64,000 nucleotides of DNA, taken from the NCBI GenBank assembly GCA_949152475.1, contig OX424555.1, positions 60,679,977 through 60,743,976 on the forward strand, given 5' to 3'. This document shows positions 8,938-61,700 of the stretch, in pieces. The stretch is from Terebella lapidaria (Eukaryota; Annelida; Polychaeta; Terebellida; Terebellidae). How positions within the stretch are numbered: the stretch's first letter is position 1; the number at the start of each line of letters is the position of its first letter. A model generated the notes under the pieces. That model was not told the origin of the DNA. It made no database searches and saw only the letters and a program-made list of their open reading frames with translations. The position numbers and the translations under genes were made by a program.

Positions 8938-9409
8938 TAACTTTGCATGTAGTTGGCTTGAGGGTACACTTAGCCCCCCCCCCCCAATTTTAAACCAGAG
9001 ATTGTTTGCTCTGAACAAACAATCCAGATTTATGTCACTGTATAACTTTTATTATCTGTGTTGTAAATAAATGAGTACAAACCACCAGTATGAATGGCCT
9101 ATTGATCTGATATTACTGGATCTGATAAGCCCAATGACAGACCCTATACAGATACTATCGTCATAGGACTAAGAAATGTTAACGGAGAAATGTAGAATGT
9201 TGAGCCACAACCATTTGTTTCCCCAAAATTGCCGTTTTGGCCTTTGAAGGTCACTGGTGATCAAATTAAAAGTAACCACTGAAATCACTATGTGAATTGA
9301 CATTTGAATATACCAATATTTAAGCTTTATCCAAGAAGTATTCTAGGAGTTTACTCCACAGTCCACACAACTCCCATTTTTGAAGAAAAATTAGCCCAAG
9401 GGCTAAGAT

Positions 9410-10582: not shown

Positions 10583-11060
10583 AATAGGTTAATGAAGTCA
10601 AAAATATTTTTCAATGGGCAAAAACAGTTTTCAGCTGAAAATGGATCAAAACAGTGACTTAATCAAACATTTTCGGATCAAATTTATTTTTGCCGATCTG
10701 TCAGAAAATCAAAATGGCAGCCATTGTGCCAAGCGCAGACCGTCGGTTCAAGAACAACGAAACTTATACTTATATACATCACACGGGTACATATGGGGAG
10801 TCCTATGCATCATCTGAATGAATCTAAATGTTACTGACCAGTTTTCAAGAAAATTACTACCAAAGTCCAAAAATTGTTATAAACGCTACCTTGACCTTTC
10901 AAGGTCATCGAAGAGCAAAAGAAGACCACCACTGAAACTGCAATATGGAAATGATTTCCCGTTTGAATTTGTCAATATATAAGTGTTCTAGGCGTTTTCT
11001 CCATACAGCGTCCGTTATGAAGCAAGAGTGGGTGAAATTGTCAGTCCCCCCAAAAATTTT

Positions 11061-16600: not shown

Positions 16601-16758
16601 AAAAGCCAGATATACTCTTTCACCATTAGAAATCACTCTGATGTTTTCTGCCACAGTTTGTCACGAGGGCTGTCCGAGTAGTGGACTTGATCACTAACCT
16701 GGACATGCAGGCATTCCAGTCTCACACTGGGCTTAATGCTTTCATCAGCAGACTCGAG
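13613..16758 (+). CDS. HUWE1: HUWE1 exons 1-15: N-terminus and DUF908
   Basis: Exons: 13613-13657, 13797-13895, 14023-14163, 14299-14438, 14532-14610, 14739-14801, 14910-14984, 15074-15187, 15331-15430, 15533-15633, 15745-15806, 16090-16178, 16267-16347, 16454-16539, 16657-16758. They code residues 1-459. Recognisable blocks are [68 protein letters not shown] and [12 protein letters not shown], each nearly identical to human. This armadillo-like region forms part of the ring-shaped scaffold that recruits substrates. Introns are 90-280 bp. Confidence 0.93.
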
Positions 16759-19700
16759 GTTTGAGATTCCAACCATCAATAGCTTTTGTGTATTTATCGA
16801 AACACACTTTTGTTTTCCAAAATAATTTGTAGATGTGTATCATGATATTTTGTGCATGTTGCTGTTCGACAGCATGAAGTCAACATCTGCCGGAAGGAGC
16901 AGCCGTTTGTGATACGCCCAAAGCGTAGTGAGTCTGTGATGTCCATGGAGGGGAATCCCGACTCCCCGGCGAGCCTCCCCGAGAAGAGCGGAGACCCAGG
17001 GGGAGGACAGACCCCAAAGGATGCTGCCATGGAGACAGAAGCTCCTACAACCTCTCAAGGCGAGACCGAGCCTAGCGAAGGCGCGTCCACATCGGCAGAG
17101 GTCAAGGTCTTCCCAGAGGTTGACGCCGTCAAAGGTCCTGATGGGAAAGGCCCCCAGTGTTTCCCACAGCGAGGTGCACTTCTCAAGTCGATGTTAAATT
17201 TCTTGAAGAAAGCCATCCCCGATCCAGCGTTCTCCGACAGTATTAGACACTGTGAGTACTTTCCTCATAAATATGTAGCTATTGTCGCTGATGGTCACAA
17301 ATATTCTTGTATGATCTCACCACTGCCATGTTTTTTTTTTCGCACTAGTGATGGAAGGTACTCTGCCGCGTTCGCTGAAGCACATCATCAGCAATGCCGA
17401 GTACTACGGGGCTTCGCTCTTCTTGCTAGGTGAATGTTAAAAACAGAAACATTGAAATGTTAAACTTGAATTCACAGGATGAAGTATCAGAATGAGAAAA
17501 AATCTTGTCGCATTGCTGTGAAGACTAAAACCCTTATTCTGTTCGATTATGAACATTAACGTTTCATTACAGCGACTGATGTTGTTACGGTGTACGTATT
17601 CCAAGAGCCCTCCCTGCTCTCCTCTCTCCAGGATAATGGACTGACCGATGTTGTTCTTCAGGCTCTCCTCGTCAAAGATGTTAGTATCTCTTTCTTCATT
17701 TATTGCTGATCAAATTAATGTGTGTTGGTATATAAGCAGCCTGAGAAGGACGATGTTGTTTACTGTACACATCAGTCTGGTTAAGAAGCTGCCAGATTGA
17801 ACGCGCCTTTGTTAATCCTGTGGGAAGTTGTTTGGGATCATGTGATGGTCCAATCCATGACTTCCCCATGGGAAGCATTGGTACATTTGTACACTTTTAG
17901 TGTGCTTAATGGAATGTATTAAAAAATTTGCAACAGTTTCAGTATATTTTGACTTTAGTATATAAGTGACCTTATATACAAAACCCAACTGAAGCATGTG
18001 ACAGTTCAAGTTAACCTGGTACCAAAAACGAAACCACAATTAAATTGTCTATCATGATTTCGCATGAACTTTTAAAGCAGCACGATAAGGACAATGTTGT
18101 TCTCTATGCACTTTAGTCTGGTTTAAGAAGCTGCCAGATTGAAAGCGCCTTTGTTAATCCTGTGGGAAGTTGTTTGGGATCATGTGATGGTCCGATCCAT
18201 GACTTCCCCATGGGAAGCATTGGTACATTGTTATTATCACTTTTAACTGATTTCTACTTCATAAACCATACTTATCAATTCTGAATAATTGCCTGAAACC
18301 CTTTGACTTGCAGGTCCCCGCCACTCGGGAGGTGCTGGCGTCACTGCCTAACGTCTTCAGTGCGTTATGCCTCAACAACCGTGGACTGGAGGCCTTTGTG
18401 GAGTGCAAACCGTTCAACCGACTCTTCAAAGTGCTGTTGTCTCCTGATTATCTTCCAGCGATGAGACGAAGACGCAGCTCTGATCCTCCTGGTATGTAAT
18501 TGAACTGTGCATGTTAGTGTTTGTAAATATCATACAGCATTGTCGTATCTCCACATTATTGTTGTCTCCTCAATTCTGTGGTCGTTCTATCAATGCAAGA
18601 ACAGAACTTTGCAGTGACTTGCATCGTTGGTCAACTTTGGATCTTCCCCAAAGTTGATCTGGTTTTCAGCTGCAACATTTATATTACATATCTTGAATAT
18701 TGAATATTTTCACTTACATTTACGAATGAATACCAGAATGCATTGCAGTATCTCCATGATACCTCCTTGTGGGTGTTATGGCCGTCAATTCAGTGCGAGA
18801 AAGAAGCAGTGACTTGCATCGTTGGTCAACTTTGGATCTTCCCCGAGGTTGATCTGGTTTTCAGCTGCAACATTTATATTACATACCTTGAATATTGAAT
18901 ATTTTCACTTGCCATAACCAATGAATACCAGAATGCATTGCAGTATATCCATGATATTTCCTTGTGAGTGTTATGGCCGTCAATTCAGTGCGAGAAAGAA
19001 GCAGTGACTTGCATCGTTGGTCAACTTTGGATCTTCCCCAAAGTTGATCTGGTTTTCAGCTGCAACATTCACATGACATATCTTAAATATTGAATTATTT
19101 CACTGACCATTACAAATGAATACCAGAATGCATTGCAGTATCTCCATGATACCTCCTTGTGGGTGTTATGGCCGTCAATTCAGTGCGAGAAAGAAGCAGT
19201 GACTTGCATCGTTGGTCAACTTTGGATCTTCCCCGAGGTTGATCTGGTTTTCAGCTGCAACATTTATATTACATACCTTGAATATTGAATATTTTCACTT
19301 GCCATAACCAATGAATATCAGAATGCATTGCAGTATATCCATGATACCTCCTTGTGGGTGTTATGGCCGTCAATTCAGTGCGAGAAAGAAGCAGTGACTT
19401 GCATCGTTGGTCAACTCTGGATCTTCCCCAAAGTTGATCTGGTTTTCAGCTGCAACATTGAAACTTGTGGTTACTTTTAGATGCTTAAATGATGGGAGGA
19501 GGTTACACTTGTTTCCATGCAGTTTAATGTCATGTCTGACCTTAAGTTTTGAAAGTCGAGAATGTACAGAAAGCATTGTCGTTCATCCTTATGTCTTGTC
19601 AGTGACATTTGTGATTTTGCACCAATGCAAGAGAAAATGCATTCAAAAAGCATCGTTGGTCAATTCTATGCTGCAGGAATTGTCCTGGTATTCCGAATGC

Positions 19701-22700
19701 AACATTCACAATTACACAAGCACATTTATCTAATATAAATTTTGTAACTGTTATAAATGTAGTTTGTGTAATAGGTATACAGATTGTCATGAAGTATAAT
19801 GCTAATTAGTGGACTAAGTTTTGAAAATCGAGAATGTACAGAAAGCATTGTCGTTCATCCTTATGTCTTGTCCGTGACATTTGTGATTTTGCACCAATGC
19901 AAGAGGAAATGCATTCAAAAAGCATCGTTGGTCAATTCTAGGCTGCAGGAATTGTCCTGGTATTCCTAATGCAACATTTACATGTGAATATATTATGCAC
20001 CTATATACAATTGATAAGATGTAACTGTTTTTTACAGGCATGTAGCTGCAGCATAAAAGGGTACTTACTGTAGTGTCAATAGGCATGCATGATGTAGAGG
20101 GATACATTATGCAAGTTTGTGTTTTGCTATGTTACATTGCAAATGATTGTTGACTTGCCAGGTGACACTGCCAGCAGCCTGGGAAGTGCGATGGATGAAC
20201 TGATGAGAAATCAGCCATCACTGAGAACAGAGGCAACCAAAGCCATCATCAAGGTAAAGATTCTTCCAATCCTTCTACAGTGTTATATATTTGTGCCTCC
20301 AATGTTGCTCGGTGATGATTTCCTTGACAAGCATATATCTTATTGTCTGCTATATGGAAGGCATGTGATGATTACTCAACCACCTGAGAGCAACAAGTAC
20401 TGTAAATATAAGGGACTCACCAGTACTGAACAATATTTGCCTGTATCATTTAATCTTTTCGCTGTTGTCTGTAGCTGCTGGAGGAGGTTTGTGCCATGGG
20501 TAGGGATGCCCAGTACATCTGCCAGAAGCCCCAGCCGAAGGTGGATACCACATCTAGCATGTCCTCCAGGAGCAACATCACGGCCGACACGGCGTCCTCG
20601 GACGATGACGACGACGATGACGAGGTTGCCAGCACGCACAGTGGCAGTGTTGCCAAGCAACAGGGAGAGGGCCAGGCCTCCCAGGAAGGGTAAGGGTGGG
20701 AGCTCGGACCGTGCTGGGTGTGAGGACAGAGATGGCAGGGGTTGGGATTAGTAGCTGAGAGGGATGGGGAATCTATGGATAATGTGCTCCTTGATGAAGT
20801 ATTTTGACAAGCATATGTCTGACGGCCTGCTATATGGAAGGCTGTTGAAGTCATCATCACTGTCTGAGAGCAATTGGAAATAATATGTTGCATGTATGTC
20901 TTGCGGGATTGTTGAGTTGATACTCTGTATATATCAGAAGTCAATATCAGAAGTATTATGTATGCATATCAATGATGAGAAAAACGACAAGCATATGTCT
21001 GACTGCCGGCTTAATGGATGGCGGCTGTTGCTAAGTTTTATCTCTGAGACTTTACGTGGGACAATCAGTTAAGTTAACAACCATACATTCGCTCACAATT
21101 TGATGATATCTTGTTGTTCGAGAAGCTCTGCACATTATTGCCACAGAGCAGAATAAACATTGTCAGTATCTGTGATGATAAAACCGACAAGCATATGTCT
21201 TACAACCAGCTTAATGGATGGTGCCTGGTGCTAGGTTTTCTGTCTGATGATACTAGTACAAAAAAACATTATGACTTGAGCATTATATCTCGAGAGATTT
21301 ATGCATTGTTTGATCTCCTGCATGTTCTATGTAGAGTCACATATGGGAATAAATGCAGTGCTAGAGAGAATACGCAAAACATTCAGCACATGTCATCTCT
21401 TGTGTTCTGGAGATTGACTCATAACTGTTTTGCAACATGATCATAACAAATGTAAATGTCTCCTCTCAACATATATCTTTATATTTTATATAACGTATGA
21501 CTTGTTATATTTCAGAACTTCACAGAACACACCAGAAAGAACAGCTATCCCTCTCATGGACTATGTTCTCAATGTTGTAAGTTTCACTGTGAAGTTTTGT
21601 ATAAATGTGTGTAGTTGTGAGAAAAACAGGCAAATTGGCGAAACATTTATGTTCTATTCTTGTGCACTTTACGATCTCCGGTTTGCCCCACTCTCCATGG
21701 CATGCTTGGTATAAAATAAGTGCTAGAACATATTCACTCAACCCCTCAGCACTTGTGTGGTTCTATCTCGTGGCCATATAATTCAAGGGGTTTAGACATT
21801 TGTATTAGTATTGACTCCAATTCCTTGTCCCAGTCTATTTTGTTTCACCATGTACAAATCAAGCTACCATTGTCATAGATGAAGTTCGTGGAAGCAATCC
21901 TCAGCAACAATACGACTGACGATCATTGTCGGGAGTTTGTGTCACAGAAGGGCCTTGCGCCGTTGATGGGAATTCTGGGACTGCCCAATCTGCCCATTGA
22001 CTTCCCACAGAGTCCGTCTTGCCAGGCTGTCGCTGCAGTGTGCAAGTCAATACTGGTGAGGACCGCACTAGCACATACCATGCATAGGGGAGTCTGATGG
22101 AAACTTTGATTGCGATTGTAGTATCATGGAAATCATTTTCTTGTGATCTTGGAACACTTACGTACCTCTCAACGTTCTTGACATGTGATTTGAAGTTAAG
22201 CAGGAATCATCTCCCTGAATGTAACTCTCTGATTTCAGACTCTGTCCCACGAGCCGCAGGTGCTGAAGCAGGGCTTGCTACACCTGAATGACGTACTGCA
22301 GGAGCTGGAGCCCATCCACCGCTTTGTGGAGCCTCCGGGTGGATCTGTGCTGCTTCGTGAACTCGCTAATGTACAGAACGTGGCGGACCCAACCCTCTCG
22401 GCTCAAGCCACTCCACTCCTGCATACCCTCGCCTCGGCACACGCCTACATCACTATGTTCACACACGTCTGTAAAGTCGGTCAGGTCAGTGGTTTTGTCA
22501 ATTTGGTGATAGAGGTGAAACAAAATAAAATTGGGGTCTGTTCATGATCATTTGTATATTGTTTTCTTGCAGGCCGACATCCGCAGTATTTCTATTAACC
22601 ATTGGGGTTCAGATCTCGGTCTACAAGTATTGAAAGGACTTGCTAGATTGTACACCTCCCTGGTGTGGGAAAGTACTATGTTACTGGCATTCTGCAGTGA

Positions 22701-25700
22701 AGATGTGTGGCCGGAAGGCTGTGATTTCGGCAAATCGGACTTGGAAAAGCTACTCAAAAATGTCAAAGACAAGGATGGTAGTGATGAGCCCAGCAACCCC
22801 AGCTCATTGGGGAGTGATAGCAATAGCACAGACACCCAATCACAAAATACACCTTCTCTACAAAGGACTACGGGGGATATGGCCAGTAATGGAGTAAGTG
22901 CTGCAATGGAAAGTTTATCAACATCTGAAAATGTAACGAGCCCCATGGAGGTGGAGGAAGTGGGCAATGTAAGAGAAATTGCCAGTCGTTCAACGTCAGG
23001 GACATCCACAGCATCGGAGTCCAAGGGCTTCTCCAGCGAAACGGACGAGAAAGCCTCAACGAGTACTGCAGATAAAAAGAACAAGCTGTCTCCCAGTCTA
23101 CAAGCGCAGATCAAACAGATCAAGCCCTTACTGTCGGCTACATCACGCCTTGGTCGGGCCCTCGCTGAGCTATTTGGACTGCTCGTCAAGCTGTGTGTGG
23201 GGTCCCCCGTCCGTCAGAGGAGGCTGACACAGGTCACTCCCGCCCCAGTGACACCTACACCAGCAGCACGGGCCGTCGCAAAGACCCTTGGAGATCTGCT
23301 TGCTCAGGGCTTTAGCTGGTCACCTCCTGACTACATCCCAGTACCAAAGCTCAAGTAAGCAATAAAACATGGCAGTTCTGTGAATGTGACATTGCTGGTG
23401 TTGTCCAATACCACTTTGCTCTTCACAAATTGACAAAACTTTTAATTTTCTTCCAGGCTTACATTCTACATCTGTTCTGTTGGCTTCACTGCTCCAATGC
23501 TCTTCGACGACAAGAAATACCCATATCACCTGATGCTGCAGAAATTCCTGTCTTGTAGTGGACAGGAAAACCTCTTTCAGTAAGAATAGATTAAAAAAAC
23601 AATCCAACTGGCTCTTTACTATTTCGCAAATTAGGTGTTGATTATATCTGACACAATTGTCCACATATTGATATTTTCTGTGCCAGGTCTTTCGAGTGGG
23701 CATTGTCTTCCAACGGGAAAGTCCCACTGGAGCAAGGCCTAGAACATCCAGACTTGCCGGGTAAGTTGGAAATTTTTTACTTTGAGCTCGACTTGAGAAA
23801 TTTAAGCTGTACATTCTGTATGGTTACAGACCTGCTTCCAGTATGATGACAAAACCATGACAGTCAATATAAACATCTGATTCTCTGTGATATTGGTTTT
23901 AATTTCTGATGGAAGAGGTCACAATGAACCCATTATATCCCCCAAAATGTGAAATCACACAAAACATTCAACGGCTATTGTTGTATTTTATACAGATGGA
24001 ACAGGTGAGTTTTTGGACTCATGGTTGATGCTGGTGGAAAAGATGGTCAACGTCAAGAACATTCTCGAGACTACCCACACCATGCCCAACAAGTCTTCAC
24101 AGTCGGGATTTGTCCCGTTTGATCCTCTCAAGTATCTCGTACTAACTCACAAGGTAGGTGTCTTTCTGGCATACAAGGAATGGTTATACGCCACTTGAAA
24201 ACTTCAATCAGAATGATGATTATATTCTTGACAAGCATATGTCAGAAATGTGTGATGTTGAGAGTTAGAACTGTACTGACTGATCCAAATTTGTACCTTC
24301 AGTGATTGCATGAATAATGATGTAAAGTTTTGACTAGCACATTATCTGTTTGTACAGATGGCATTCAATGCGGTGATGCATTTGTGGAACAAAGTACCGC
24401 TGAAAGTCTATGGAGGTCACATGTCTGAGTCGATACTGGCCATACTTTGTCACATCATCAAGGGAGAAGCAACAATAAAGGTCAGAAACTCAATTCTAGA
24501 GGATTAGTTTTAACTGCAAAATAATGTGGTGTGACTATAGTGTATTACTATACTTGTTATATGATGACAAACCTATGACAGTCATTATATCATCTGACTG
24601 CTCATGTTGATGGTTTTAATTTCTGATAACAAAGTATTGATATGAATGTTATTGTGTAATAGAACAAATTGACCAGACAAATATCAATCACTGTTATCCT
24701 TAAATATAACTTGAACCCTTTCAAAAGTGATGAAAAACCTATGACAGTCAATATATTCCCACTGACTGCCCATGTTGAAGGTTTTAATTTCTGACAATGA
24801 AACGGTCTTGTGTATTTATGAGTTATCGTATTTATTGCCATACCACTACCTCTATAATAAACTCTTTGGGTAATCTTACCTTGGCATTCAAAGAAGAGGA
24901 GAGAGAAATGAATGTCACAAGAATTTTCTCAAAATTCCTGACATCCATCTCGAACTCGAAATTGAAGGAAATTACTCTCACACATCTCAGATTCCCCGCG
25001 GTGTAGATGTGACGTCACACCGGTCATATGATTGACCTTAACCGCCATTAATTTGCTCCTCCATTGTTGGATGTGCAGCAAGTCTTGCTTTCGGCATTCA
25101 AAGTCGAATTTCTTCACGTCTACGATCGTCTTTAGGCTGTTCTTTGCACAGCTTTTCTTCAGTAGATCGTTCTTTCGTTGTTAGACTAGCTTAGAGTTAG
25201 TGATTTGCGATTTTTTTTTTGGGAGGAAATGGTAAAGCCTCCCCAGGCCCCTTTCCTTCCCCCATTATCGCCCGTTTGTACTTCGATGTTTGATATGTTT
25301 CAGATATGAAGTGCATCGTTTGCAAACACTACCTTCCTAAGTGGGAGGCTCATAACGCCTGCTGGCAGTGTAGGGACACTGTTTATTGCCGTCCTTCAGC
25401 CACCTGTGAGTTATGCGCGGATTGGTCCATCGACGAGTGGAAACTCTGTCTTCAAGGCTTACGGGAGATTCAGGCCCGCAGGTTTGCTGGTTGCCCTACT
25501 CCCCCTTCCCCGTCAGATTCTGATAGCGCCAGGCCGCGTCCCAAGGCGTCTGAGGAACGCAAGCGGCGTTTAGATTTGCAGTTAACCAATGCTGTTTGTG
25601 CTGTAAGTTTTGATTTATCATTGTCATTTTCTTTCAGCCAGGTACGGGTCCCGGGAGCCGCGCGTTCGGCTCTCGGCACCCTAACTTCCCCACAACCTAC

Positions 25701-28700
25701 GGGTTTGTGTGGCTCACTTTTGGCTCCCTCTCTACTGGCCCCTCGTTCTCATGCTTCTCTGGCTGAACGACCTGGGTTTCAGTGTCCGAGTGTGGTTTCG
25801 GGGTCTGCCGGTTCCGTCGGGCTCACGACGGTTCCCTGCGCCCGGGATCCCTCTGGACAGAGAGTGTTGTTTCCCCCTCCGGGTCGGGCACCTGCCCCCG
25901 GAGCTGGGTTTCAACCCCATAGCCAGGGCGGATTTCGGTCCGGGCCCGTGTCGCCAGTGATACGGCCGCCGGCACCCGATTTCCCGTCGGTTACTGGACC
26001 CCAGGCCGTGGCTACCGGAGCCGTGGCCAGTAGGGGCCGGGAGCCAAGGGCCATGAGCCGTCCAAACCCATGGGTTCCTGGAGTTTCCATGTCTCCACGG
26101 TTTCCACAGTTTCCTTTTTCTGATTCGCCCTGTGTGTTTCAGATCGCCGAGGATATCAAGGACGATTCCCCTCTTACGGCCCTGCCCTCCGGTTTCGTCG
26201 CCTCCAGCCAGGGTATGTTGTCCTTCGCCCAGTTGGCGGACCAAGGGTCTTCCCGTGCGTCGGAGCCGTCCAGTGTTCCTGTCCAGGGGAGCTCTTCCAC
26301 GACGTCAGAGCAGCGCCTTAGGGGCGAGCTTCAGTCTTTTCGGGAAGAGATGTTAGGCCAGTGGCAGCAGTTTCTGGCGAGGTTCACGCCTCCACAGCCG
26401 CCACCGCCCCCGTCTTCCCCTCTGCCTAGGGAAGAGCCGTCTTCAGATGAGGAACCTTCCCTACAGGTCTCTCAGTCGGCTGACCAGCCGTTACCTGGCC
26501 CGTCAGGCCTCACGCTTCCGCGAAAGCGTAAGGCGGACCCGGACCAGGAGGCGGACCAGCCCGAGTCCGACGACCCTCTCTCTTGGGGGGAGAAGTTGGA
26601 TTTTGTGAAGAGGGTCCTCCCGGGTTTGTGGCCCGAAGAGCATGCTCCGGCCCCAGTCAAGAAGGTGGCTCGTTCGATGATCTCTTCTGAGATAGAGCAC
26701 CCCCGGCCGTCGAAGGACGCCTTACGGTTCCCTCTGTCACAGGGAGTTCGCGGCTCCATGCAGGAGCGCATGGACGAGACCATCAGGTCCAACAAGTCGG
26801 CGATTGGCGCGTATCCTGCTCGCCCGTCTGTCAACGACTACTATACGTCGTCGGAGTTGGACGACAAGCCTACAGCTTTGAGGAGGCATCACCCCCATTA
26901 CGCCTTTTTCAAGGAGCCTAAGGCCGTGGAGATCCCATGGGCGGCCTTGGCGGAGCTGCAGCACACGTTTCGAGTGGGGCTGGCCACGGATTCGGCCATG
27001 GACTGGCTGTCGATGGCTACGAGACGGGCCATTCTTCAGTGCCGTGACCAGGTCCTGGACAACCCTGACGTCGACCGGGATGATTTGGCAGAAGCCTTAT
27101 TGAGCTGCGCTTCATTGGTCACCTCCATTGGCAAAGGTGTGGGTGACAAGGTGGCCCTGGACTCCCACTCACTCTGGGTGTCCGAGTTGTGGCGGCGTGA
27201 CGCCTTCCTCTCATCCCTCAAGTTCGAGGTTCCGGACCAGCTCATGACAGACATGAGAGTTCTCCACCCCGTTATCCCCTCTTCCGGAGCCCCTACTTCA
27301 CTTCTACTCCCTGACCGTTCTGCGGAGTTGCGGGAGGTGAAGAAGGAGGCCGACGAGAAGGCCGCGAAGTCCTCTACTTCCAATGCCCTCCTGAGCCAGT
27401 CGAAGTCTCTGGAACGCCTCACACAACAGATGGTTTCGGCCTTTAAGAAGCCCCAGTCTGCAGTTCAGCAGTCTCAGCCTCAGCAACAGCCGACTCGTGG
27501 CCGTGGTAGAGCGAGAGGCAGGGCCTCAGGGTTGCCCTTTCGCGGGGCCTCTGCCGGCAGCACCCGAGGAGACCGTGGTCGTGGCCGAGGCCGAGGACGC
27601 GGAGAGGCTCCCAAGCCCGCAGGGGAAAAGAAACCGGGTACGTATAGCTTCGGATTCCGGGCCGGATCCTTCGCTCGAGTGTCGAGAAGAGCTGCATGGT
27701 CAGCTCGTTTCGGTCGATATTCCTTCCTCAGACGAGCCCGTAGGAGCTCGTTTAATTCTGTTTTGGAAAGAGTGGGAGCGGCTCGGGGCTTGCCCCTGGG
27801 TCGTCTCGACGCTCCGTCGAGGATTCGGCCTGAAATTCGAGAAATTGCCACCGTTATCGCCCGTCCCAAGGGGTTTCACTCTTCCAAACGATCCAGAACG
27901 CCGCCGTGTTCTCCACGAGGAGATAACGGCGATGATCGAGAAACAAGCGATAGAACCTGCTCCCGGGGACACTCCCGGGTTCTACAGCGTGTTGTTTGTG
28001 GTTCCCAAAGCGTCGGGGGGTTGGAGACCAGTGATAGATCTTTCTCCGTTGAACAAGTTCTTAATAGTGCCGACGTTTTCCATGGAAACGCCGGAGCAAG
28101 TTCGTTCAGTCATGCCTCGCGATTCGTGGGTGGTAACGATCGATCTCAAAGATGCCTATTTCCATATTCCAATGAAACCTGCAGTTCGCAAATACCTGAG
28201 ATTTCTCTATCTCGGCCGCGTATGGCAGTTTCGGGCGCTCCCGTTCGGATTATCGACAGCGCCGTGGATTTTCACCATGGTGGCTCGGGAAGTCCAGATT
28301 CTCGCCCACAAGCGGGGGATTTTTATCCACCAATATCTCGACGATTGGCTAATCCGGCACCATTGTCGCGAAACGCTGATCGTCCAAGCACAGTTTGTGG
28401 TAAATCTATGCTCACGGATGGGGTTCAAAATCAACCAAAAAAAGTCCGACTTGTCACCGCGTCGAGACTTCGTCTTCTTGGGGTATCGTTATCAGACTAC
28501 CTCAGAGACTGTGTTGCCGACGCTGGATCGTCAGTCAAAATTATCCGTGCTGTCAGAAGGCTTCCTTCGTCGCATTCCACAGACGGCCAGACGCTGGCAG
28601 TCCCTTCTCGGGATGCTGGCGTCCACGGAAAAGTTAGTTCCGTTGGGCCGCCTGCACATGCGGCCTATTCAGCGGCATCTACACTCTCAATGGTCCCAGG

Positions 28701-49700: not shown

Positions 49701-52700
49701 GTGGGGAGTTTCACGCGGAGATGCTGGCAATGAAGAACGATTTCTTGGCCCGTCTGGAGAACCTTCTTCCTCAGAGGTCTCCTAGGGTTCCGGACATCCA
49801 GCGTGTCCAGCCTCCCTCCGTGGCCTCTTCCGTGGGGGATTCTGACGAGGTCCCGTATCTACCTCGAGAGGAGGGCATTGTTCCGTTGCCTGGTCCGTCA
49901 GGGCTCGTTCGTCCCAAGCGCCAGCGTCAGGATGATGTTGCTTCTCAGGAGGGCGAGGACTCCGGGAATGCCTACGATATGCCCTGGGCCGACAAGTTGG
50001 CCTTTGTGCGCAGAATCACTGGCGAGGAATGGCCGGATGTTCATGCGGATTCTCCTCCGCCAGCGAAGCGCGCCCGGTCTTTCACGGAGCGTGATCTCCA
50101 TCAGCCTAAGGTGCCTAGGGATGTCTTACGTTTCCCGTTGGCCCCAGGGGTTAGAAACTCAGCGGCGGCCAGGGTTGAGGAGGCTTCCAAGCGCGGTCGT
50201 CCTCAACTAGGAGCGGTTCCGGCGAGGCCCAAGATTGCGGATTTTTACTCCTCGTCCATGTTGGAGGCCGAGCCGTCCAAGCTTCAGGACCATGATTCTT
50301 TCCCGCAGCCCAAGTCATTGTCTGTGCCATGGAATCAGCTGTCTGACTGGCAATCGTCCGTACGGCTTGGGGTGGCAGTGGATTCCTCCATGGATTGGCT
50401 TGTCCATGCTCTGACCGTTTCCATGAAGGCTTGTCATGAGCAGGTTATGGAAAACGAGGATTTGGACAGGTCCGAGTTAGCAGACGTTATCCATGGGTCC
50501 GTCAGCCTTCTACAGTCCTTGGGGAGGGCCGTGGCGGATAAGGTGTCCTTGGACACGTACCTCTGGTGGGCTTCAGAGCTGTGGCGCAGGGACGCGGTCC
50601 TTCAGCGGCTCGATGTCAAGTTGCCGGAGCAGCTGTTGGCCAGGCTACGTCACCACCCCGTCTTATCGGAGGAGGGTCCTGCTTCCCCTTTCCTTTTCCC
50701 GGCGGACGTGCACCGGGAGTTGGATGAGTTGAAGACCCGTAAGGAGGAGCGGGAGCGTACGAAGGCCTCTATGGATGCTTCCCTCCAACAGTCCAAAGCT
50801 ATGGAGCGTTGGTCTAAAATGCTTTTACAGCAGCAGCAGCAGCGCAAGCGTCCCCAGCAGCAGCAGCAGCCGCAGGGGGCCTCAGACTCCTCGTCGACAG
50901 CCCGCGGTAGGGGTCGAGCCCTTGACCGGCCCTTTCGCAAGGCCCCTGCAGGCACGCAACGAGGGGGGCAGAGTGGACGTGGTCGCGGCCGTGGACGTCC
51001 AACCAGCCCATCCAAGTCCGCAGGGGCGAAGAAATCAGGTAATTCCCTCGTCTCGGGATCCGGCTCCGTCACGTACGGCCGTGTCTCCAAGTCAACTCGG
51101 CTCCGTCAATATCTTAGATATAAGCGAGCCCGTAGGTGCGCGTCTAAACGGTTTTTGGACTCGCTGGCGCGATCTAGGAGCCAGTCCTCGGATTGTCGCG
51201 ACCTTACGTCGCGGGTTCGGTCTGAAATTTGTTCAGTTCCCGCCCTTGACGCTCACTCCAAGGGTTTTTTCCCTTCCCCACGACCCCGAAAGGCGTCAAG
51301 CCTTGGTAGACGAAATTTCGGCCATGATTCAAAAGCGAGCGGTAGAACCGGTGCGGGGCAACTCTCCCGGGTTTTACAGTATTCTCTTCGTGGTTCCGAA
51401 GGCCTCAGGCGGGTGGAGACCGGTCATAGACTTGTCCGCCCTCAATCGCTACCTCCATATACCGACTTTCACCATGGAGACTCCAGAAGTGGTTCGGTCG
51501 GCCATGCCTCTGGGGGCATGGGTCGTGACGATCGACCTGAAGGATGCGTACTTCCACGTTCCCATGAGAAGATCGATCAGGAAGTACCTCAGGTTCTTCT
51601 ACCAGGGGCAAGTGTGGCAGTTCAGGGCTCTGCCGTTCGGCCTGTCCACAGCCCCATGGATTTTCACCATGTGCGTCAGGGAGCTTCAGGTGCTGGCCCA
51701 TCGCAATGGCATTGTGCTGTACCAGTATCTGGACGACTGGTTGATAAGACACGAGTGTCCCGAAACCTTGATTCGTCAAGCCCAGTGGGTGGTGGATCTT
51801 TGCCAGTCTATGGGCTTCAAGATCAACCAAAAAAAGTCAGACTTATCTCCTCGGCGAGACTTCGTCTTTCTGGGCTATCGATTTCGGACTATCTCCGGAT
51901 CTGTTATCCCAACCGAGGAGCGTCAGTCAAAATTATCAGGGCAGTCCCGCGGCTTCTTAGACCGGATTCCGCAGCCCGCCTCGCGCTGGCAGTCTCTCAT
52001 CGGCACCCTGGCCTCGACGGAGAAGATGGTTCCGTTAGGCCGTCTTCACATGAGATCTCTCCAGTTGCATCTGCATGCCAATTGGTCGCAGGCATCCGGG
52101 GACATGTCTCAGCTAGTGTCGGTGCCCGACCAGGTGGTCCGCGATCTTCGATGGTGGTTGGACCCCAGCAATCTGTTTCGCGGGGCGCCGTTCCGGCTGC
52201 CTCCTCCCTCCAGGCATCTCTTTACGGATGCCAGTATGGAGGGATGGGGGGCTCATTGGGACTCGCAGGAGATTTCCGGACTATGGTCTCTTTCGCAGCG
52301 GGACGAGCATATCAACGTCCTGGAGATGCGAGCTGTGTTCCTAGCGTTACGGCACTGGGAACGCCAGTTTTCCGATCAGGTAGTTCTGTTGGCCTCGGAC
52401 AATTCTACTGTCGTGGCCTACGTGAACAAGCAGGGAGGTACCAAGTCAGCGTCCCTGTGTCTGCTCACGGTAGAACTCCTTTCATGGTGTTCCGCTCGTC
52501 GCATTTCCCTCAGGGCTCGTCACATTCCGGGTCATATGAATGTGTGGGCCGACCGCCTGTCTCGACGGGGCCAAATTCAGCCCACGGAGTGGTCTTTGGC
52601 TCCCGAGGTTTTCCAGGGTCTTTGCAACCTTTGGGGCAGGCCGTCAGTAGACTTGTTCGCGACCAGGTGGAATGCCAAGCTTCCCACGTTCGTTTCGCCG

Positions 52701-55700
52701 ATTCCGGACGAGCAGGCGTGGGAAGTCGATGCGATGTCGGTGGATTGGAACGGGTGGTTTGTGTATGCCTACCCTCCAACAGTGCTTCTGGACAGAGTCT
52801 TGGTCAAGCTCAAGTCTCATCACGCCAGGATGATTCTCATCGCACCCTTCCTTCCTCAGAAGCCGTGGTTTCCGGATCTGTTGGATTTGTTAATAGACAA
52901 TCCGGTGCCTCTTCCGGATCGGGCGGACCTTCTGAAGCAGCCCAGGTCGGACGTATTTCATCAGGCTCCGAGCGCTCTAAAGCTTCACGCGTGGCCCTTG
53001 TCGAGCGATGTTATCGAAAGAAGGGCTTTTCACGAGAAGTGTCAGCCAGGATCGCCCGAACTAATAGACGGTCTTCTCTGGCAGTCTATGAATCCAAGTG
53101 GACTAGATTCTGTGCTTGGTGTCATGGCCGGAAAGTTAGTCCGTTCGCAGTCTCGGCTCCTTTGATTTCGGAGTTTCTCCTCGAGAAGTTTAAGGAGGGT
53201 AGAGCTCCTTCTACGCTGGCGGGTTATCGGACCGCTATTGCTAAGACAATTAAGCCCAAGACCGGAGTCGATTTTGGGCAGGATGCCAGCCTTTCGGCGT
53301 TGCTGAATAGCTTCGCGGTGGAAAGGCCGAAAACGAGGAACCCGGTTCCCGCTTGGGATCTATCGCTCGTTCTAAATTGCCTTTTGTCTGGTCCTTTCGA
53401 GCCCTTGGAGAGAGCGTCACTTAAGTTTTTAACTCTTAAGACCGTTTTCCTCCTCGCCCTTGCTTCGGGGAAGAGGCGTAGTGAGCTGCACGCTCTCGAT
53501 TTTTCCAAAGTCCAGTGGAAGGAAGATGGCTCCGCGGTCAGACTCGGGGTTATCCCTTCTTTTTTGGCTAAGACGCAATTGGCTCACACCCCGTCTCTTG
53601 CCTTCTCGATCCCGTCCCTAACCTCTTCGCTGGGGCCGGGCTTGGAGGAGGATGCTAAGCTATGTCCCGTTAGAGCTCTTCGCATCTACGTCAATCGCAC
53701 GAGGGAGCTTCATGTTGGGAAACGCTTGCTGTTCGTTGCCTTTAAGAAGGGTTTTCAGAATGATATTAGGGCGGCGACCATCTCTTCTTGGGTTAAGAAA
53801 TGCGTGCTGTTCTGCTACGAGAAATCTCAGACTAAAACGTCGGGCTCCTTTCGTGCTAAGGCGCATGATGTAAGAGCACTAGCGTCGTCTCTTGCGTTCA
53901 TGAATAATGTTGCCTTGTCCGATGTCATGGAGGCCTGTACATGGGCCTCAAACAATACCTTTGTTTCCTTCTACTGTAGGGAACTGACGTGGCAGGACGA
54001 CGCCGGCTATCACTTGGGACCCGTGATAGCCGCGCAGCATGAGGTCCATCTGTAAATGATGTATATAGGAGCAGCACTTGTACATACGCACCAGTTGGAC
54101 TATTCGTTTCGGAGGCCGGTTGTCCCTCTTATTTGGGTGGAAATTTTAAGTTGTCCCGCCGCCAGCAGGACAACTGCGGGGGAGCCTCCTCAACGACTAC
54201 ACTCTCTTAACCAGGTACCATTCAGTTTAAGTTATTGATTCTTCTCGCACGCTTAAATAAACCTAATTTATATTACTAGTCGGTCTTAAACAACCCTCCT
54301 GGGTTTACTCGCGTGTGGGAGTTTCTCGCATTCTTAATTAATAAACTCTCGAATCCATAAACCACTGAATAAGTGCGTTCTATGCCTCCATGATGACTCA
54401 GTGAGGGAGTATGGTTAGCCCACCTCCTTTGGGTATTCTGTATTTACCCAAAGTGTTTATTATAGAGGTCAAAGTGTGGACATAAATAGGAAGTTTTAAC
54501 CTGTTAAAACCAGTATTTATTACACACTTACCTCTATAATAAACACGGCGAGTTTCCCTCCCGCCTCCCCTGCCTAACTAGTAGGGGACAAAGTAATGGC
54601 GGTTCCGGTGGAACAGTTTCGTCAAGAAATGTCTCAAAGTGACCACTGACTCAGTCCGGTTTCGTCAAGAAACCGTTATGAACGACTGAGATCTGAGGGG
54701 CATAGAACGACCAGTTTTAGAGAGTTTGCCATTAAAAAATTCTTAATGGCATGATTACCCTCTTATTTGAAAGCCAGGTAAGATTACCCAAAGTGTTTAT
54801 TATAGAGGTAAGTGTGTAATAAATACTGGTTTTAACAGGTTAAAACTTCCTGTTTTGTTATTTGCATGTCACTTGCAGGCAGGAAAAAGCTCAGCAAAGT
54901 GTGCAGGGAACTTCCACAACAGGAAACCAGCTGCCCGAGGCAAACCCTTCAGCCACAGGAGAGCCTTCAACTTCAGCACCAACTGGGAGAATCACGCCAG
55001 AGCAGCCTTCGGATATAACCAGCTCAGATGCTGTGACCATCAATTCTTCTTCTGGTGTGTAAAGTTCAGCATTACAGCGTGCCTGACACAAAATTAGTAT
55101 AGTCTGATACGAGATATGACCAAAAATAGATATGACTAAAAATATATATATACCTGTTGTTTCAATGCAGGCAATAGTTCCGAAACTCCCAGTGTGGCTG
55201 AGGCAGCAGAGGCACCATCAGGCCCAGATGTGCCCACAACAGCAACAGAGAGTGCCGTCACAACATCAGGCTCAATGGAATTCAGGTACGGTAATGTCAA
55301 AAGATGATTCAGTTAAAAACATTTCTCATAGAAAAAAAAATTATTTGACAGCTGAAACTTCCACTGTTTTTTTCTTGCACTGCAGGACTCCACCACGATC
55401 AAATTACAGGCGTGGCGAACAGAATAACAATATGTTTGGAGGTAAGTTGTTTGTGTAGATTCATAATGGTATACAGATGTATTTGGGTATGTATCTGGGC
55501 AGTGTCTCAATACCACATTGAAATATCAATGCGCCACTTCCTCAGATATGGAGTTGCCTGATGGAGTGGACCCATCGTTCTTGGCGGCGTTACCAGACAA
55601 CATTCGGCAAGAGGTGATCGCAGAACAGCTGCGACTACAGCGGATCCAGCAGCGTGCTCAACAGCAGCAACAACAGGCCGAGAGTCTGGGGGTCACTGAG

Positions 55701-58700
55701 GTCAATCCAGAGTTCCTGGCGGCCTTGCCTCCTAACATACAAGAAGAGGTCAGGATGTGTTAAAATGCAAAATTGTACTTTGTCATTTATGCACATGTGA
55801 ATGTGCAAGTCGTTTATGAAGATGCTTTTGTTCTGTACAGGTGCTAGCTCAGCAGAGAGCAGAACAGGCTCGACTCTCCACGAACACGACACAGCCCGAC
55901 CCTGAGAGTAACCTGGACCCATCGTCTTTCATCCAGTCACTACCGCCGACGCTTCGACAGCAAGTCCTCGCAGACATGGACGACTCGATGGTGGCTGTGC
56001 TTCCTGCAGACCTCGCCGCGGAGGCCAATGTCCTACGACGAGATTTCGAGGAGCGGAATCGTCGTCTCCTTGTCCAGGACAGACTATCAGGTGCTGGCCT
56101 GCTCTCAGGCATTCTCCGCCATCCAGGTGACTAGGTTCCATTGTACTCAAGGGCGGCATGCTAGTGGTGGTTTGTGAGGGAGGCAGCAGTCCGCGCGAGT
56201 GTAGTGACTGGTCCATGATGTGAATGCCCAAAAACCTTTCTGGTGGTGGAAGCATTGATCTTTGAATGGCAGGAGGAATAAGCTTGGCTACATACTAGTA
56301 CTTCATTTCTCTGATTCTAGCTTGCTTTGGAGAGATTGGAATGAACGAATGCTTTAGGCCAATTCCTTGTATAGTATAGGCTAAATCGGGCTGAGAAACT
56401 GTGTGGGACAATGAGATTAGGCATGATATGAAACTCGCCAACAGAGCAGGTTCCCAGGCCAAGAATTGAATCCATGATTTGTTGGTCTGAAGCCTAGTAC
56501 TATGCTTACCGTATTTATTCAATTAGTTCGAACAGCTGAAAATAATTAAATTTTGAAATGTTCGAATTATTAGATTCACGATAAAATCGTCCGTCAAAAC
56601 GAAAAAAAATCCCAAACCCAGATCGATCATGCTATGGCAGATAAGCCTACGCGGGTTGACAGATGCCGCTCGTGCTGGTTGGTTAGGGCCTGTGCGATTG
56701 ATAGGTTAATTGCAGACAACTAGCATTTTAAAAAAAAACTTGAATAACTGGCTTCTAAATCGCCGGGTAACTGTAATTTATAATCTCGCATTGATGCTAG
56801 ATTCTAGTCATATTGCAAGTGAAATCGAGTCACTCGACTCGGAAAATCTTCAATGGCCCGCAAACCGCCTGGCACTATGAGGTCCGCGCTTTTTGTCATA
56901 TACCCTAGCATTGGAAGGCCTAATCGCGATCACTGCCACCTGGCGAATATATCGCTGATTACTCATTTCGTAGTGCTGCCACCTGGCGAGTTGTATGTTT
57001 TGGCAGCTGAGAAGTTGATTTCGTTCGTTGTTTCAATCGATATTTCGATCGTAAATTTGACTGTTCGAACTAAACGAGTCAATTTGAAAATTATTTTCTT
57101 GAATAATTTTTGGTGTTCGAATTATTAGAGTGTTCGAACTAATTGAATAAATACGGTATATTCACTCTTTCTTGTCAATATATTCATTCTTTCTTGTCAT
57201 GTGATTTTGACCTTGCTGCTTGGGCCAATTGAGAATGAATTACAGATTTGTGGCAAAAACTCGACATGTTTGAAGAAAAGATCAATTGGATAATGTTTTA
57301 TGATGAAATCTTCGAATCTTCTCTGAAAATATGTTTGTATGTTGTCTGTTTGATTGTATGCATTTTGGTTATGGTGATGGTTGTGGGTGGATTATTTCAA
57401 TAGTTTTGTATCACTTTTGATTTTGCTAAGTTCACTGTCCGCATAGTGCTATGCGTAATGCTGTCAATGCTCTCCACAGGCTTGTATGGACGACTGGGAA
57501 CAACACGGTACGCTATCCGTACTCCCCCGTCCCGGAGCAGTCATTGGGCATGGCCATACCGCAACCAGACACAGAGCACCTCCAACCCTAACACCGTCAA
57601 GCTTCGTGGGCGCCACCTTCTCGACCAGGAGGCTCTGACTTGTCTGCTCGTCTTGTTATTCGTCGATGAGCCAAAGTTGAACACAACACGGTTACACCGG
57701 GTGTTGAGGAATCTTTGTTACCATGCTCCAACACGGACTTGGGTCATTCGAGCATTGCTGGCTATGCTACAAAAGACAGGGGAGTGTAGTACGTCAGACT
57801 CAACAGCCAGAACATTACACTTGTCTGAGCAGATGGCCGTGGAAAGTTCTGACAAGGGTAAAAATTGTGAAAAGTCAAAGTGTAAACAAAAGTCTAGCGG
57901 ACAGTCAACAAGTGGTAACCAATCTGAACCAGAAATATTAGAGGTGGAAATGAATGTACCAAAGATAGAGAACCGGACACTAACGCCACCAACTTGGTTG
58001 TCTATCAGTCTGGATGCAGCCCTTGGGTGTCGTGCCAATGTCTTCCACATTTCTAGGAATACCCCAAGTCCAACAACTAATAGTGCTTCGGGTGCCATCA
58101 GTAAAAGACATGGATCATTCACATCATCACCCACAAGTGTCACCATCCACCCTCAGGCATCGCCCCTGGTCTGTAGACATGTGCTAGACACTCTCATATC
58201 TCTGGCTAAAAGTTTCCCAAGTCAGTTCCTTCCTCAGTCCAAGGCCAAAGAAGCTGGCTGCTCAGGGTCGAGTGAATCCAGCAAGGACAGTGATAACAAA
58301 CCGGTGTCAGACTCTCAAGAGCCTCCAGATCTAACAAAGACTCCCAGTAGTGCTCCAGTGTCCAGCTCTCAGTCAAGCAGTCAGCAGAGCTCCACCGCTG
58401 CGTCACAGGACATGGACTTCTGGGATATTCTAGTCAGGTTGGACAGCTTGAGTGGAGTGGGACGCAAAGGGAAAACATTCCAGAGGGCACATGGTTCGCA
58501 CCCACCGTCGCAGGCGACGGCTGACTCTTCCGCGACAACCTTCGAGGACTCGCCACTGGGGCAGTTGATGATGATGCTTGCGCACCCAGTGCTGAGGCGC
58601 AGTCAGCTGCTGACGGATAGACTGCTGCGGCTCTTAGGCCTTGTGTCCATCTCGCTTCCTGACCTCTCCCAGCAGAAATCTGCAGCTCAGACACCTGTCA

Positions 58701-61700
58701 GCTCTGTCTCCTCTACCGCCCCCACCACAGTCACTACCACAGCCACCACAGGTCAGTGTCAATTTAGTGTGTTACAGCATGGGACTCTTCCGTGTGGAAC
58801 GCATTGCTGTGTTTGGAAATATCTCTGCTGATGATATGAGAATATGCAACAGAGGGTATAAAACCATGATATATACTACACCTTGCTACATGATGTTCAC
58901 TCATGTATATAATTTCTCTCATAGCGGCTTCGAGTTCCACAACCACTACTACATCAATGACAAGCACAGCTACTGTGACCACACCATCACCTGCACCGTC
59001 CAATACAGTACAGGCCACATCAGCTGCTGAAGTGGTGTCTGACAGTCGGCCAACAGCTGCTACTGCTGATACAGACTCGGACTCAGCCGGAGAGGCAGAG
59101 GAGACAGTGCTACAGAACCAACTACAGCTCGCTGTTGAGGTAGGCGCTAGGAGGTATAAGAGATTTGGAAGAGAGACTTCACTTTCGCCTATATTTCCAT
59201 CATCTTCCATTTCGTTCCATGGACCACTGTATTCCTGGGTATATTGGCGGCTAGGTGCAGTATTGTAGTTTGACGTTCACAGAGACAATTGTTCGTTACA
59301 TCAGTTAGAGTTTGCTTGCATTCATAAATCCATGTCTTAGTAATATAAATAGTAATCATGAATCCTGAAAGATGCCACCAGCCGCCAGGAGTGCCACCAG
59401 TTCAAAATTCAAAGTGGTGCAGATGAAGTTGAGTCTCTTTATTCCAAGCTCTGTGCAGGTATTATGACCACGGTGTTTCATGACAGATTCATACTGGGAT
59501 TTGTGGACTATTCAGTATATGTAAAATGTTATTACAGATTTTGTCTGTCAATCTTCAGAGCATATGATGAACTCTGCAAAATTGCCGGCCATATTTGTTT
59601 TTCGAAACAGTGATGGATTTTCACCTTGGAGAACTGATTGCTCTGTGTTGAATGTAGACTTTGTACTGGGATTTCTGCAATATCTAGTAGGCCTATGTGT
59701 AAAGTGTTATTACAGGATTTGTCAATCTTCAGAGCGTATGATGAACTCTGCAAAATTGCAGTCCATATTTGTTTTTCGAAACAGTGATGGATTTTCACCT
59801 TGGAGAACTGATAGCTCTGTGTTGAATGAAGATCTTGTAGTACTGCAAATCTGCAATTCATTTTCTCAGTGAGCTGGGTCGTTTTACAATGTGATTGACA
59901 TCCCTTGTGTGTCACAGGTGCTGACATCCAAGTCCTGCTCGGAGGAAGGCCTTGAGGATGCCACCAACCTGTTGCTGCAGCTTTCTCGTGCCAACAACGC
60001 AACGCGCGACACCATACTCACCCTGCTGCTGGGAGGCGCCAGGCAACTCGGCCTCGTCGTTTGTACACATATCAGGTCGGTGTTTGATTCTGTTTCGGCT
60101 TTCGAAGGAGGCAGTGTTTCGATTCTCTGCTCATTGTTTTAACTATATGGGAGCAAGTTTCGGTGCAAGAAAAAATGGGAGTGTTGTCTTGACTTTCACC
60201 AGGAGTCTTCTGGCCGAGCTGAAGGAACTGAATGCTGCTGCAGAGAGCCAGAAGGAGAAGGAGGAGGAGCTTGAGGAAGTGACTCCTGCCGCATCACAGG
60301 TCAAGGGCATGATGGTAGACAGGTATGGAAGAGACTCAAAGTTTGGTGGTGTTTATTCTAGGCAGGGGAAAGTCAGAGTTTGTATGATGAGTTTTGCAGA
60401 ACTTGCATCCCATATTTGTGTCCACACACAGTGATGGATTTTCACCTTGGAGAACTGAAAGCTCTGAATTCCTTACCCCAAATTGCCCACATAAAATGCC
60501 TTTGACTTGCCACCTGACATAATCCCTTGCTGTTTCTAGGTTCCAGGGTGGCACGGTGGTGGTGCACGCCACTGCCAAGGTGAAGGCAGGTGCCGGGAGA
60601 GAGCTTCAGCTGCCCTCGATGACTCTGCTCACCTCCAAGACATCCAGTCAACAGTTCCTCCTGCGCATACTCAAGGTCATTATCCAGCTCAGGGAGGCTG
60701 CTCGCAACTCAAGCAGGAAGGACAAAGTCGGTAAGTTGATCCATCGTGGCAGTGGGAATAAAACATGTAGTCTGTTGAATTTTGACATTGAGTACTCTGT
60801 GACGAACACAATTGACAGTCATTATAGTTGTCAGAATTGTCCATGTAGACCGTTTTAATTTCTGAGAGTACATCAGATCTTACCACCATGTTTAATCGTG
60901 GATAACATATGATGACAACACCTAACTAAGGTGATGTATGTTGTAGGCCGCGATTTTTCAAACCTGTCGGAGGCGATGGAGATTCTGACAGCCGGCGCAG
61001 AGGCCATCATCGAGATGGTTGGCCAGCGTTCTGGTATCAGGGATCTAGAGTCAAGACCCAGTGCCTCGCAGGCTGCCCGCTCTGTGTTGCGACAGGGCTT
61101 GCTGAGCACTGCAGCCCCTGCTGCAACACCTGGAGCACCTACTGCAGCATCTGGAGCACCTGCTGCGGCATCTGGAGCACCTGCTGGTACACCTGCAGCG
61201 CCCTCTGCTGGCAACAGTACAACAGGTGGTCCCTCAGCCAGTAGTAACCAGGCGGCTGACACCGACAGGGCTGAGACTCCCATGGATATTGACCAGCCTG
61301 GTAAGTGTAACACACTTGAGTCATGGTTGATAGGAAGCAGCATAACATACTAGAGTTGGTTCCATCTCAAAGTGATTGCTACTTTGACCAACAACCTCAT
61401 TTTCCTGCTGCAGGTCCATCCACCTCCACGACTTCTGACAAGGATACCAAGGATGACAAAAAAGTTGTAGAGCTGAGTCTGCCAAGGGTCAGTGAGCAGT
61501 TACAGCTGGATGAGCTGTGGGACACCCTGGGCGAGTGCCTGACGGAGCTAGCTAAAACACCTGACCACCACGCTGTTCTTGTACTGCAGCCTGCTGTTGA
61601 GGCCTTCTTCCTCATTCACGCAGGTATATAAGATACAATAGTGGATGTGATATACCATATAACACCAAACTTGGAAGCACACAAAATGTATAAGAATTTC

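Follow-up and report, generated by a model that had tools for sequence, protein, structure and literature searches.

The HUWE1 gene of the annelid Terebella lapidaria as a very probable host of five families of intron-encoded small nucleolar RNAs

A stretch of 64,000 nucleotides (nt) from the annelid Terebella lapidaria (GenBank assembly GCA_949152475.1, contig OX424555.1, positions 60,679,977 to 60,743,976 of the forward strand; hereafter the window) contains an orthologue of HUWE1, the gene of a large ubiquitin ligase, whose introns carry 28 repeated blocks with the layout of small nucleolar RNAs (snoRNAs). Judged by its anatomy, HUWE1 of T. lapidaria is very probably a host gene for intron-encoded snoRNAs, because the blocks combine several features: C/D boxes, terminal stems whose two sides change in a compensating way, pockets of the H/ACA type, guides complementary to ribosomal RNA (rRNA) at their targets, placement in the sense orientation only and a narrow distance to the 3' splice site. 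The initial annotation of the window had already proposed HUWE1 as a multi-family snoRNA host, and these anatomical features now lend that proposal strong support.

The blocks, found with family anchors, lie on the + strand between positions 17736 and 60871 and comprise 16 box C/D candidates (six of the U27 family, seven of family D and three of family E) together with 12 H/ACA candidates (five of family A, five of B and two of C). All 28 are intronic and sense to HUWE1. A word search with one guide or 3'-end word per family, allowing 2-4 mismatches, recovered the 28 copies on the + strand plus two weak chance matches (35757 and 363), and on the - strand returned two weak chance matches and nothing else. 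The anchors and this search together bear out the earlier count of 28 coding-strand blocks in 12 HUWE1 introns.

The host gene and its introns

The host gene was modelled by dynamic programming, which gave 65 exons; a later list holds 68, some of them added or adjusted by eye. The model covers HUWE1 from 14132 on, with more 5' exons outside it. Compared by phmmer with human HUWE1 chains, the spliced pieces scored 1031 bits (E 0), 623 bits (E 3.3e-186) and E 2.4e-49, and the alignments to the human protein cross the splice junctions of all 12 introns of interest. The last of these (60731-60946, 216 nt) includes a one-base correction made by eye.

In 5' to 3' order the 12 introns measure 634, 1670, 221, 826, 235, 204, 7735, 204, 5639, 778, 217 and 216 nt and contain, respectively, A1 and A2; B1-B5, C1 and C2; U27a; U27b-d; Da; U27e; Db-Df; U27f; A3-A5; Ea and Eb; Ec; and Dg. 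Half of them bear a single RNA, and the other six bear two, seven, three, five, three and two. One snoRNA per intron is described as the predominant rule in animals (PMC11028025), a rule that is broken in these six introns, with up to seven RNAs in one of them.

Box C/D candidates and their terminal stems

Sixteen blocks had been described as C/D RNAs with boxes and terminal stems. The description stands for the D box, which reads CTGA in every copy, and for the terminal stem in 15 of the 16, where at least four contiguous pairs are present and covary; it is less exact for the C box, which agrees with RUGAUGA in 13 copies and reads TTGATGA, AGGATGT or GTGACGA in one copy each of the others. 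From the start of the C box to the end of the D box the copies measure 60-77 nt.

Central to the identification is the behaviour of the stems, which differ between copies yet remain complementary within each, as in TGTTGCTC/GAGCAACA, AGTATC/GATACT, ATCAG/CTGAT and TTGAACTTG/CAAGTTCAA. Scored by how well the 14 nt preceding the C box pair with the 14 nt following the D box, true stems averaged 13.9 and swapped combinations 6.9, and none of 20,000 permutations was as good, either for all 16 copies or for a 13-member set from which the near-duplicates De, Df and Eb had been dropped; among the six U27 copies, the true pairing was the single best of 720. The boxes of this first test had been chosen by eye. 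When any CTGA 45-115 nt further on was accepted as the D box, the test gave 13.9 against 7.0, again with 0 of 20,000 permutations as good for both sets and with the true U27 pairing the best of 720.

A strict scan of both strands, requiring an exact C box, a D box, a stem of at least 5 base pairs (bp) and a score of 12, returned nine sites on the + strand, all among the 16 copies, and no site on the - strand. Relaxed and applied to 67 introns, it returned ten sites on the + strand, nine of them among the 16, and none on the - strand. A possible 29th C/D RNA, single-copy and left uncounted, lies at 39518-39588 in the intron that holds A3-A5 (C box ATGATCA, D box CTGA, 9-bp stem).

Guide sequences and predicted rRNA targets

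The rRNA references comprised two database records, L001 and L002, and Rfam consensus lines, and form an incomplete set. Both records are titled as bacterial metagenome-assembled genomes and contain eukaryotic large-subunit (LSU) and small-subunit (SSU) ribosomal DNA, presumably as contamination; the divergent ribosomal DNA of L001, used as target reference, yielded poor matches only.

All six U27 copies carry the guide GACAAGCATAT(G/A)T with a D'-like box after it, and Rfam SNORD27 matches, all below the gathering score, span the model in three of them. The predicted target of these copies, at the 5' end of 18S, is likely Am27, as in the U27/snR74 family. Table 1 of PMC3511168 gives 18S Am27 as the target of the U27 family.

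In all three copies of family E the 3' guide TTTTCACCTTGGAGA forms 15 bp (one G-U) with LSU TCTCCAAGGTGAAGA of L002, placing the target C fifth from the D box. Weak Rfam matches accompany it, to Afu_294 in all three copies and to Z101 in one. The predicted target is likely LSU Cm2791 in human numbering, of the U39/U55 type; the paired C is equated with Cm2791/Cm1850 through the Rfam family and not through numbering. Plant RF00358 and human U55/U39 are listed at Cm1850/Cm2791 in Table 1 of PMC3511168.

In family D, GTTTTAATTT precedes the D box unchanged in all seven copies and pairs over 9 bp with LSU AATTAAAAC of L002, and the invariant GACAGTC of the family could pair with GACTGTT just upstream of that site. 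If family D guides rRNA, its candidate site may be the U of AAUUAAAAC. An identity of family D with U31 was rejected: the Rfam name snoR31_Z110_Z27 denotes a family of plants whose tabulated target is LSU Um2641 (PMC3511168, Table 1), no matching guide was seen by eye in D, and RF00089 is absent from Rfam matches up to E 1. With this identity fell the notion that the locus replicates the U27-U31 cluster of the vertebrate UHG gene.

H/ACA candidates

The hairpin-hinge-hairpin-ACA layout first ascribed to 12 blocks is found in families B and C, where all seven copies have an ANANNA hinge box and an ACA; family A agrees with it in the ACA (five of five copies) and in a 3' hairpin present in all five minimum-energy folds, and departs from it in the hinge, as taken up below.

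In the 3' hairpin of all seven B and C copies, GCATCGTT stands directly before the apical stem and TGGT directly after it, with the ACA 15 (B) or 16 (C) nt on. The target site was first recognised in metazoan 18S sequence and was afterwards confirmed from a mouse primer. The pocket pairs perfectly (8+4) with 18S as given by this primer, which contains the implied target ACCA-U-N-AACGATGC exactly (PMC10127747; also PMC10374281). The rRNA references contain a single site for this target at up to one mismatch; it lies in the Rfam 18S consensus and differs from the target at one position, and shuffled sequences lead one to expect 0.005 such sites. The predicted target of B and C is likely the 18S uridine in ACCAUAAACGAUGC, in the context ACCA-U-AAACGAUGC, and perhaps the snR31/ACA8 site; it would then correspond to psi996/psi999. 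A Neurospora table groups 18S psi996 with snR31, snoR5 and ACA8 (PMC2780460).

A consensus fold of the B/C alignment contains two hairpins, with double-sided changes at 7 of its 37 pairs, and B and C differ from each other by compensating changes. A general pocket scan brought out no convincing match for the 5' hairpin of either B or C. Weak Rfam matches of C1 and C2 to SNORA75, SNORA35 and SNORA50 were taken as shape matches only.

Placement, copy history and competing explanations

Measured from the D-box end of the nearest copy in each of the nine C/D introns, the distance to the 3' splice site is 87, 268, 86, 78, 77, 84, 106, 81 and 81 nt (the last after the one-base correction), so that the nearest copy lies at 77-87 nt in seven of them. 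The reference window for a C/D RNA is 60-90 nt before the 3' splice site; at least seven of nine introns fell within it in 18 of 100,000 random placements, drawn at uniform positions after removal of 6,550 nt of transposon from the 7.7-kb intron. Among the six short single-copy introns the spacing has a standard deviation (sd) of 3.1, equalled by 2 of 100,000 placements. This distance is reported to be important for snoRNA processing (PMC2780460).

Across introns, C/D and A copies are 0.55-0.97 identical within the unit and 0.39-0.61 identical in 60-nt flanks, for which random 60-mers give a baseline of 0.48 (sd 0.04, maximum 0.59 of 200). Flank identity of up to 0.95 occurs solely among neighbours within one intron. 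Identity that stops with the RNA could reflect selection on that RNA or, equally, copying confined to the unit; for the diverged copies at least, the compensating terminal stems point to selection.

Copying alone underlies the first alternative, in which the blocks are mostly dead snoRNA-derived copies, retroposed or tandem-amplified, HUWE1 introns having served as a landing and amplification site with one or few members still working. Unit-wise copying would also end identity at unit boundaries between introns; the A copies are 89-99% identical, with flanks unrelated save upstream of A4 and A5; and U27c has lost its stem. Moreover, stem strength is lower in the seven C/D copies lying further from a 3' splice site than in the nine lying nearest to one (mean score 11.1 vs 16.1; 142 of 11,440 exact permutations, P 0.012, post hoc), a difference that may suggest weaker constraint on misplaced copies. 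Dead copies would nevertheless not be expected to preserve stem pairing through compensating changes, as the diverged ones do, nor to keep GACAAGCATAT unchanged in six of six U27 copies and GTTTTAATTT in seven of seven D copies as the rest drifts; no decayed copies were found at 2 mismatches, and the nearest copies hold their narrow splice-site spacing. We regard this explanation as unlikely.

If the elements influenced the splicing or expression of HUWE1 in cis and did not guide rRNA modification, they would equally be confined to introns and to the sense orientation, and intronic snoRNAs that affect the splicing of their hosts are described in a review (PMC11028025); a cis role would have no need of three families with conserved rRNA guides at canonical spacing, and it appears very improbable. 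The window is rich in repeats, among them two DIRS-like retrotransposons as well as unrelated tandem arrays, but that snoRNAs are mimicked by chance or by common repeats, such as pieces of transposons or repeats in coding sequence, is hardly credible in view of a stem score reached in 0 of 20,000 permutations, the 0 antisense sites of the strict scan, the splice-site spacing and the rRNA complementarity, even if single weak members such as U27c could be chance or decay.

Several results weigh against reading HUWE1 as a snoRNA host, or against the part that particular copies play in it. The comparison with Rfam recommended at the outset gave sub-gathering matches for several candidates and none at the gathering score, the best being 39 of 80 (SNORA75) and 36.7 of 52 (SNORD27); the gathering threshold was rejected as sole arbiter, since no candidate passes it, yet guides and stems are specific. 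Among the C/D copies, the terminal stem of U27c is nearly gone (2 bp), the C box of U27f (35064) is degenerate, two of the nine introns fall outside the 77-87 nt spacing (268 and 106 nt), and folding energy is unremarkable in the five of 16 RNAs folded (z -0.50 to -2.07). The D guide fits several rRNA sites with G-U pairs, scoring equal or better, with no convincing single target. An ANANNA H box is missing from the hinge of all five A copies, and no convincing rRNA pocket match was found for A4, the sole A copy scanned, against the incomplete rRNA references. For B and C, the 3' target was not listed by the general pocket scan, which missed it because the Rfam 18S consensus has a mismatch there; the covariation term is small (-1.15), and in the MAFFT alignment, where the base of the 3' hairpin is partly misaligned, just two of its five basal pairs persist throughout the seven copies; and the fold of C1, one of three H/ACA copies tested, reaches z -1.07 and is matched by 28 of 200 shuffles.

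Table 1. Host gene and candidate snoRNAs in the window, grouped by family (distances are in nt to the 3' splice site; stems are terminal stems)
Feature	Intron	Position	Strand	Remarks
HUWE1 orthologue, host gene, modelled part		14132..63646	+	dynamic-programming gene model; phmmer to human HUWE1
U27a (SNORD27 type)	20254-20474	20303..20395	+	C GTGATGA, D CTGA; 8-bp stem TGTTGCTC/GAGCAACA; 87 nt
U27b	20690-21515	20785..20872	+	C box TTGATGA; 5-bp stem; 648 nt
U27c	20690-21515	20969..21049	+	2-bp stem; Rfam SNORD27 36.7 bits, E 0.011, below gathering
U27d	20690-21515	21165..21254	+	6-bp stem AGTATC/GATACT; 268 nt
U27e	24154-24357	24207..24284	+	5-bp stem ATCAG/CTGAT; 78 nt
U27f	35004-35207	35054..35132	+	degenerate C box AGGATGT at 35064; 9-bp stem TTGAACTTG/CAAGTTCAA; 84 nt
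Da	23761-23995	23835..23915	+	6-bp stem CTTCCA/TGGAAG; 86 nt
Db	24481-32215, 5' of retrotransposon	24554..24632	+	6-bp stem TTGTTA/TAACAA
Dc	24481-32215, 5' of retrotransposon	24719..24802	+	5-bp stem set back 3 nt on each side
Dd	24481-32215, 3' of retrotransposon	31725..31801	+	4-bp stem; 418 nt
De	24481-32215	31895..31971	+	tandem copy; 4-bp stem; 248 nt
Df	24481-32215	32065..32143	+	tandem copy nearest 3' splice site; 5-bp stem CATCA/TGATG; 77 nt
Dg	60731-60946	60792..60871	+	C GTGACGA; 6-bp stem GTACTC/GAGTAC; 81 nt
Ea (U39/U55-type guide)	59140-59917	59556..59645	+	7-bp stem; 15-bp LSU match at +5; Rfam Afu_294 and snoZ101 below gathering
Eb	59140-59917	59730..59819	+	6-bp stem; 106 nt
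Ec	60323-60539	60373..60467	+	9-bp stem; 81 nt
A1	17680-18313	17736..17888	+	unit 91-97% identical to other A copies; 60-nt flanks 43-55%
A2	17680-18313	18077..18230	+	family anchor, fold, unit/flank comparison
A3	35449-41087	35531..35680	+	family anchor, fold, unit/flank comparison
A4	35449-41087	40497..40649	+	fold z -3.52, 0/200 shuffles as good
A5	35449-41087	40856..41008	+	fold, unit/flank comparison
B1	18492-20161	18537..18680	+	pocket for 18S ACCA-U-A-AACGAUGC (predicted); 15 nt from pocket to ACA; H box
B2	18492-20161	18740..18875	+	195-nt tandem unit; B1 pocket; H box
B3	18492-20161	18935..19070	+	B1 pocket; fold z -3.81; H box
B4	18492-20161	19130..19265	+	B1 pocket; H box
B5	18492-20161	19325..19460	+	B1 pocket; H box
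C1	18492-20161	19573..19707	+	diverged B paralogue; B1 pocket, 16 nt to ACA; weak Rfam SNORA75/SNORA35, below gathering
C2	18492-20161	19845..19979	+	diverged B paralogue like C1; B1 pocket; weak Rfam SNORA50, below gathering

Retrotransposons and other repeats

Two related DIRS-like retrotransposons occupy HUWE1 introns at about 24826-31400 and 47939-54860. Their inverted repeats measure 211 nt at 100% and 235 nt at 97% complementarity. In each, a frame for reverse transcriptase (RVT_1, with E 2.2e-21 in one and 3.1e-22 in the other; RNase H weak in the first) overlaps a frame of 1788 or 1892 amino acids that is similar to tyrosine recombinases at its end, with a PHROG integrase match in the first element (E 1.5e-06) and Pfam Phage_integrase below the cut-off in both. 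Over 1465 aligned positions, the two long frames share 47% identity. In intron 24481-32215 the element sits between Db/Dc on its 5' side and Dd/De/Df on its 3' side, and it would therefore either have broken up a snoRNA intron already in place or have inserted between copies arranged in tandem.

A GATGATGA-rich repeat at 44287-44377, around the predicted HUWE1 exon 44249-44370, mimics C boxes. Weak matches to the archaeal C/D families sR2 and sR52 in Rfam were traced to this acidic coding repeat and discarded, as was a MIR6450 match that falls in the second retrotransposon. Diverged direct and inverted repeats at 5400-10600 and 36570-38120, with tandem units of 137 and 453 nt and arms of up to 193 nt at 76%, show no sign of kinship with the snoRNAs.

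Proposed route and significance

If HUWE1 acts as a host, its pre-mRNA would be spliced, the freed introns would be debranched and trimmed, and core proteins bound to the RNA units would protect these from trimming, leaving RNAs that are predicted to guide rRNA modification; expression, trimming and modification are all inferred here. Release by splicing followed by trimming is the route known for intronic snoRNAs (PMC11028025). The set probably grew within HUWE1 through copies arising in several introns and through tandem duplication inside introns.

The initial annotation further linked HUWE1 hosting to ribosomal-protein quality control and ribosome production. Such a coupling is possible and receives no support from this analysis; the main requirement of a host is described as broad expression, with snoRNAs moving between hosts by constrained drift (PMC3511168). 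A more elaborate version would give HUWE1 a dual output, a ligase that clears unassembled ribosomal proteins together with a graded dose of guides. Each multi-copy intron would then be a register, with efficient release limited to the C/D copy some 80 nt ahead of the 3' splice site and the remaining copies drifting or kept as spares; we think this version distinctly unlikely to hold as a whole.

Should the RNAs be expressed, a large ubiquitin ligase gene would join the known snoRNA hosts, the locus would constitute a dense record of snoRNA spread inside one gene, and disruption of HUWE1 introns in such species could change rRNA modification. The many diverged copies also make processing needs, namely stem strength, splice-site distance and number per intron, testable within one animal.

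Comparison with known snoRNAs and host genes

Vertebrate U27 resides in the non-coding UHG/SNHG1 gene; the HUWE1 copies share the guide GACAAGCATAT and the D'-like box with SNORD27/U27 and yeast snR74 (RF00086; 18S Am27/Am28) and differ in their host and in numbering six diverged copies. Family E has the same 3' guide and target spacing as SNORD39/SNORD55 (U39/U55) and plant snoR15/Z101 (RF00358; human Cm2791, Arabidopsis Cm1850), again with a different host. Families B and C resemble the snR31/ACA8/snoR5 guides in the type of 3' pocket and are unlike them in having seven copies in a single intron.

As regards the host, none of the literature matches listed deals with HUWE1 as a carrier of snoRNAs, as far as their titles and abstract openings go. 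Drosophila Uhg genes likewise bear snoRNAs in many introns, one per intron as described, compared with two to seven in six of the 12 HUWE1 introns (PMC4430873); the Drosophila lola, Arpc2 and dom clusters place several snoRNAs in one gene (PMC13228274), and a vertebrate host of the JOSD3 type spreads several across the introns of one gene (PMC2653536). Cis-duplication in vertebrates and sponges has likewise left copies in neighbouring introns of one gene (PMC2653536, PMC3412847). The HUWE1 locus differs from such cases in scale: a single protein-coding gene has 28 copies, belonging to five families, spread over 12 of its introns. Because multi-snoRNA hosts, copies in several introns and host turnover have all been described before, it is best seen as a new host gene with a large family expansion rather than as a new mechanism.

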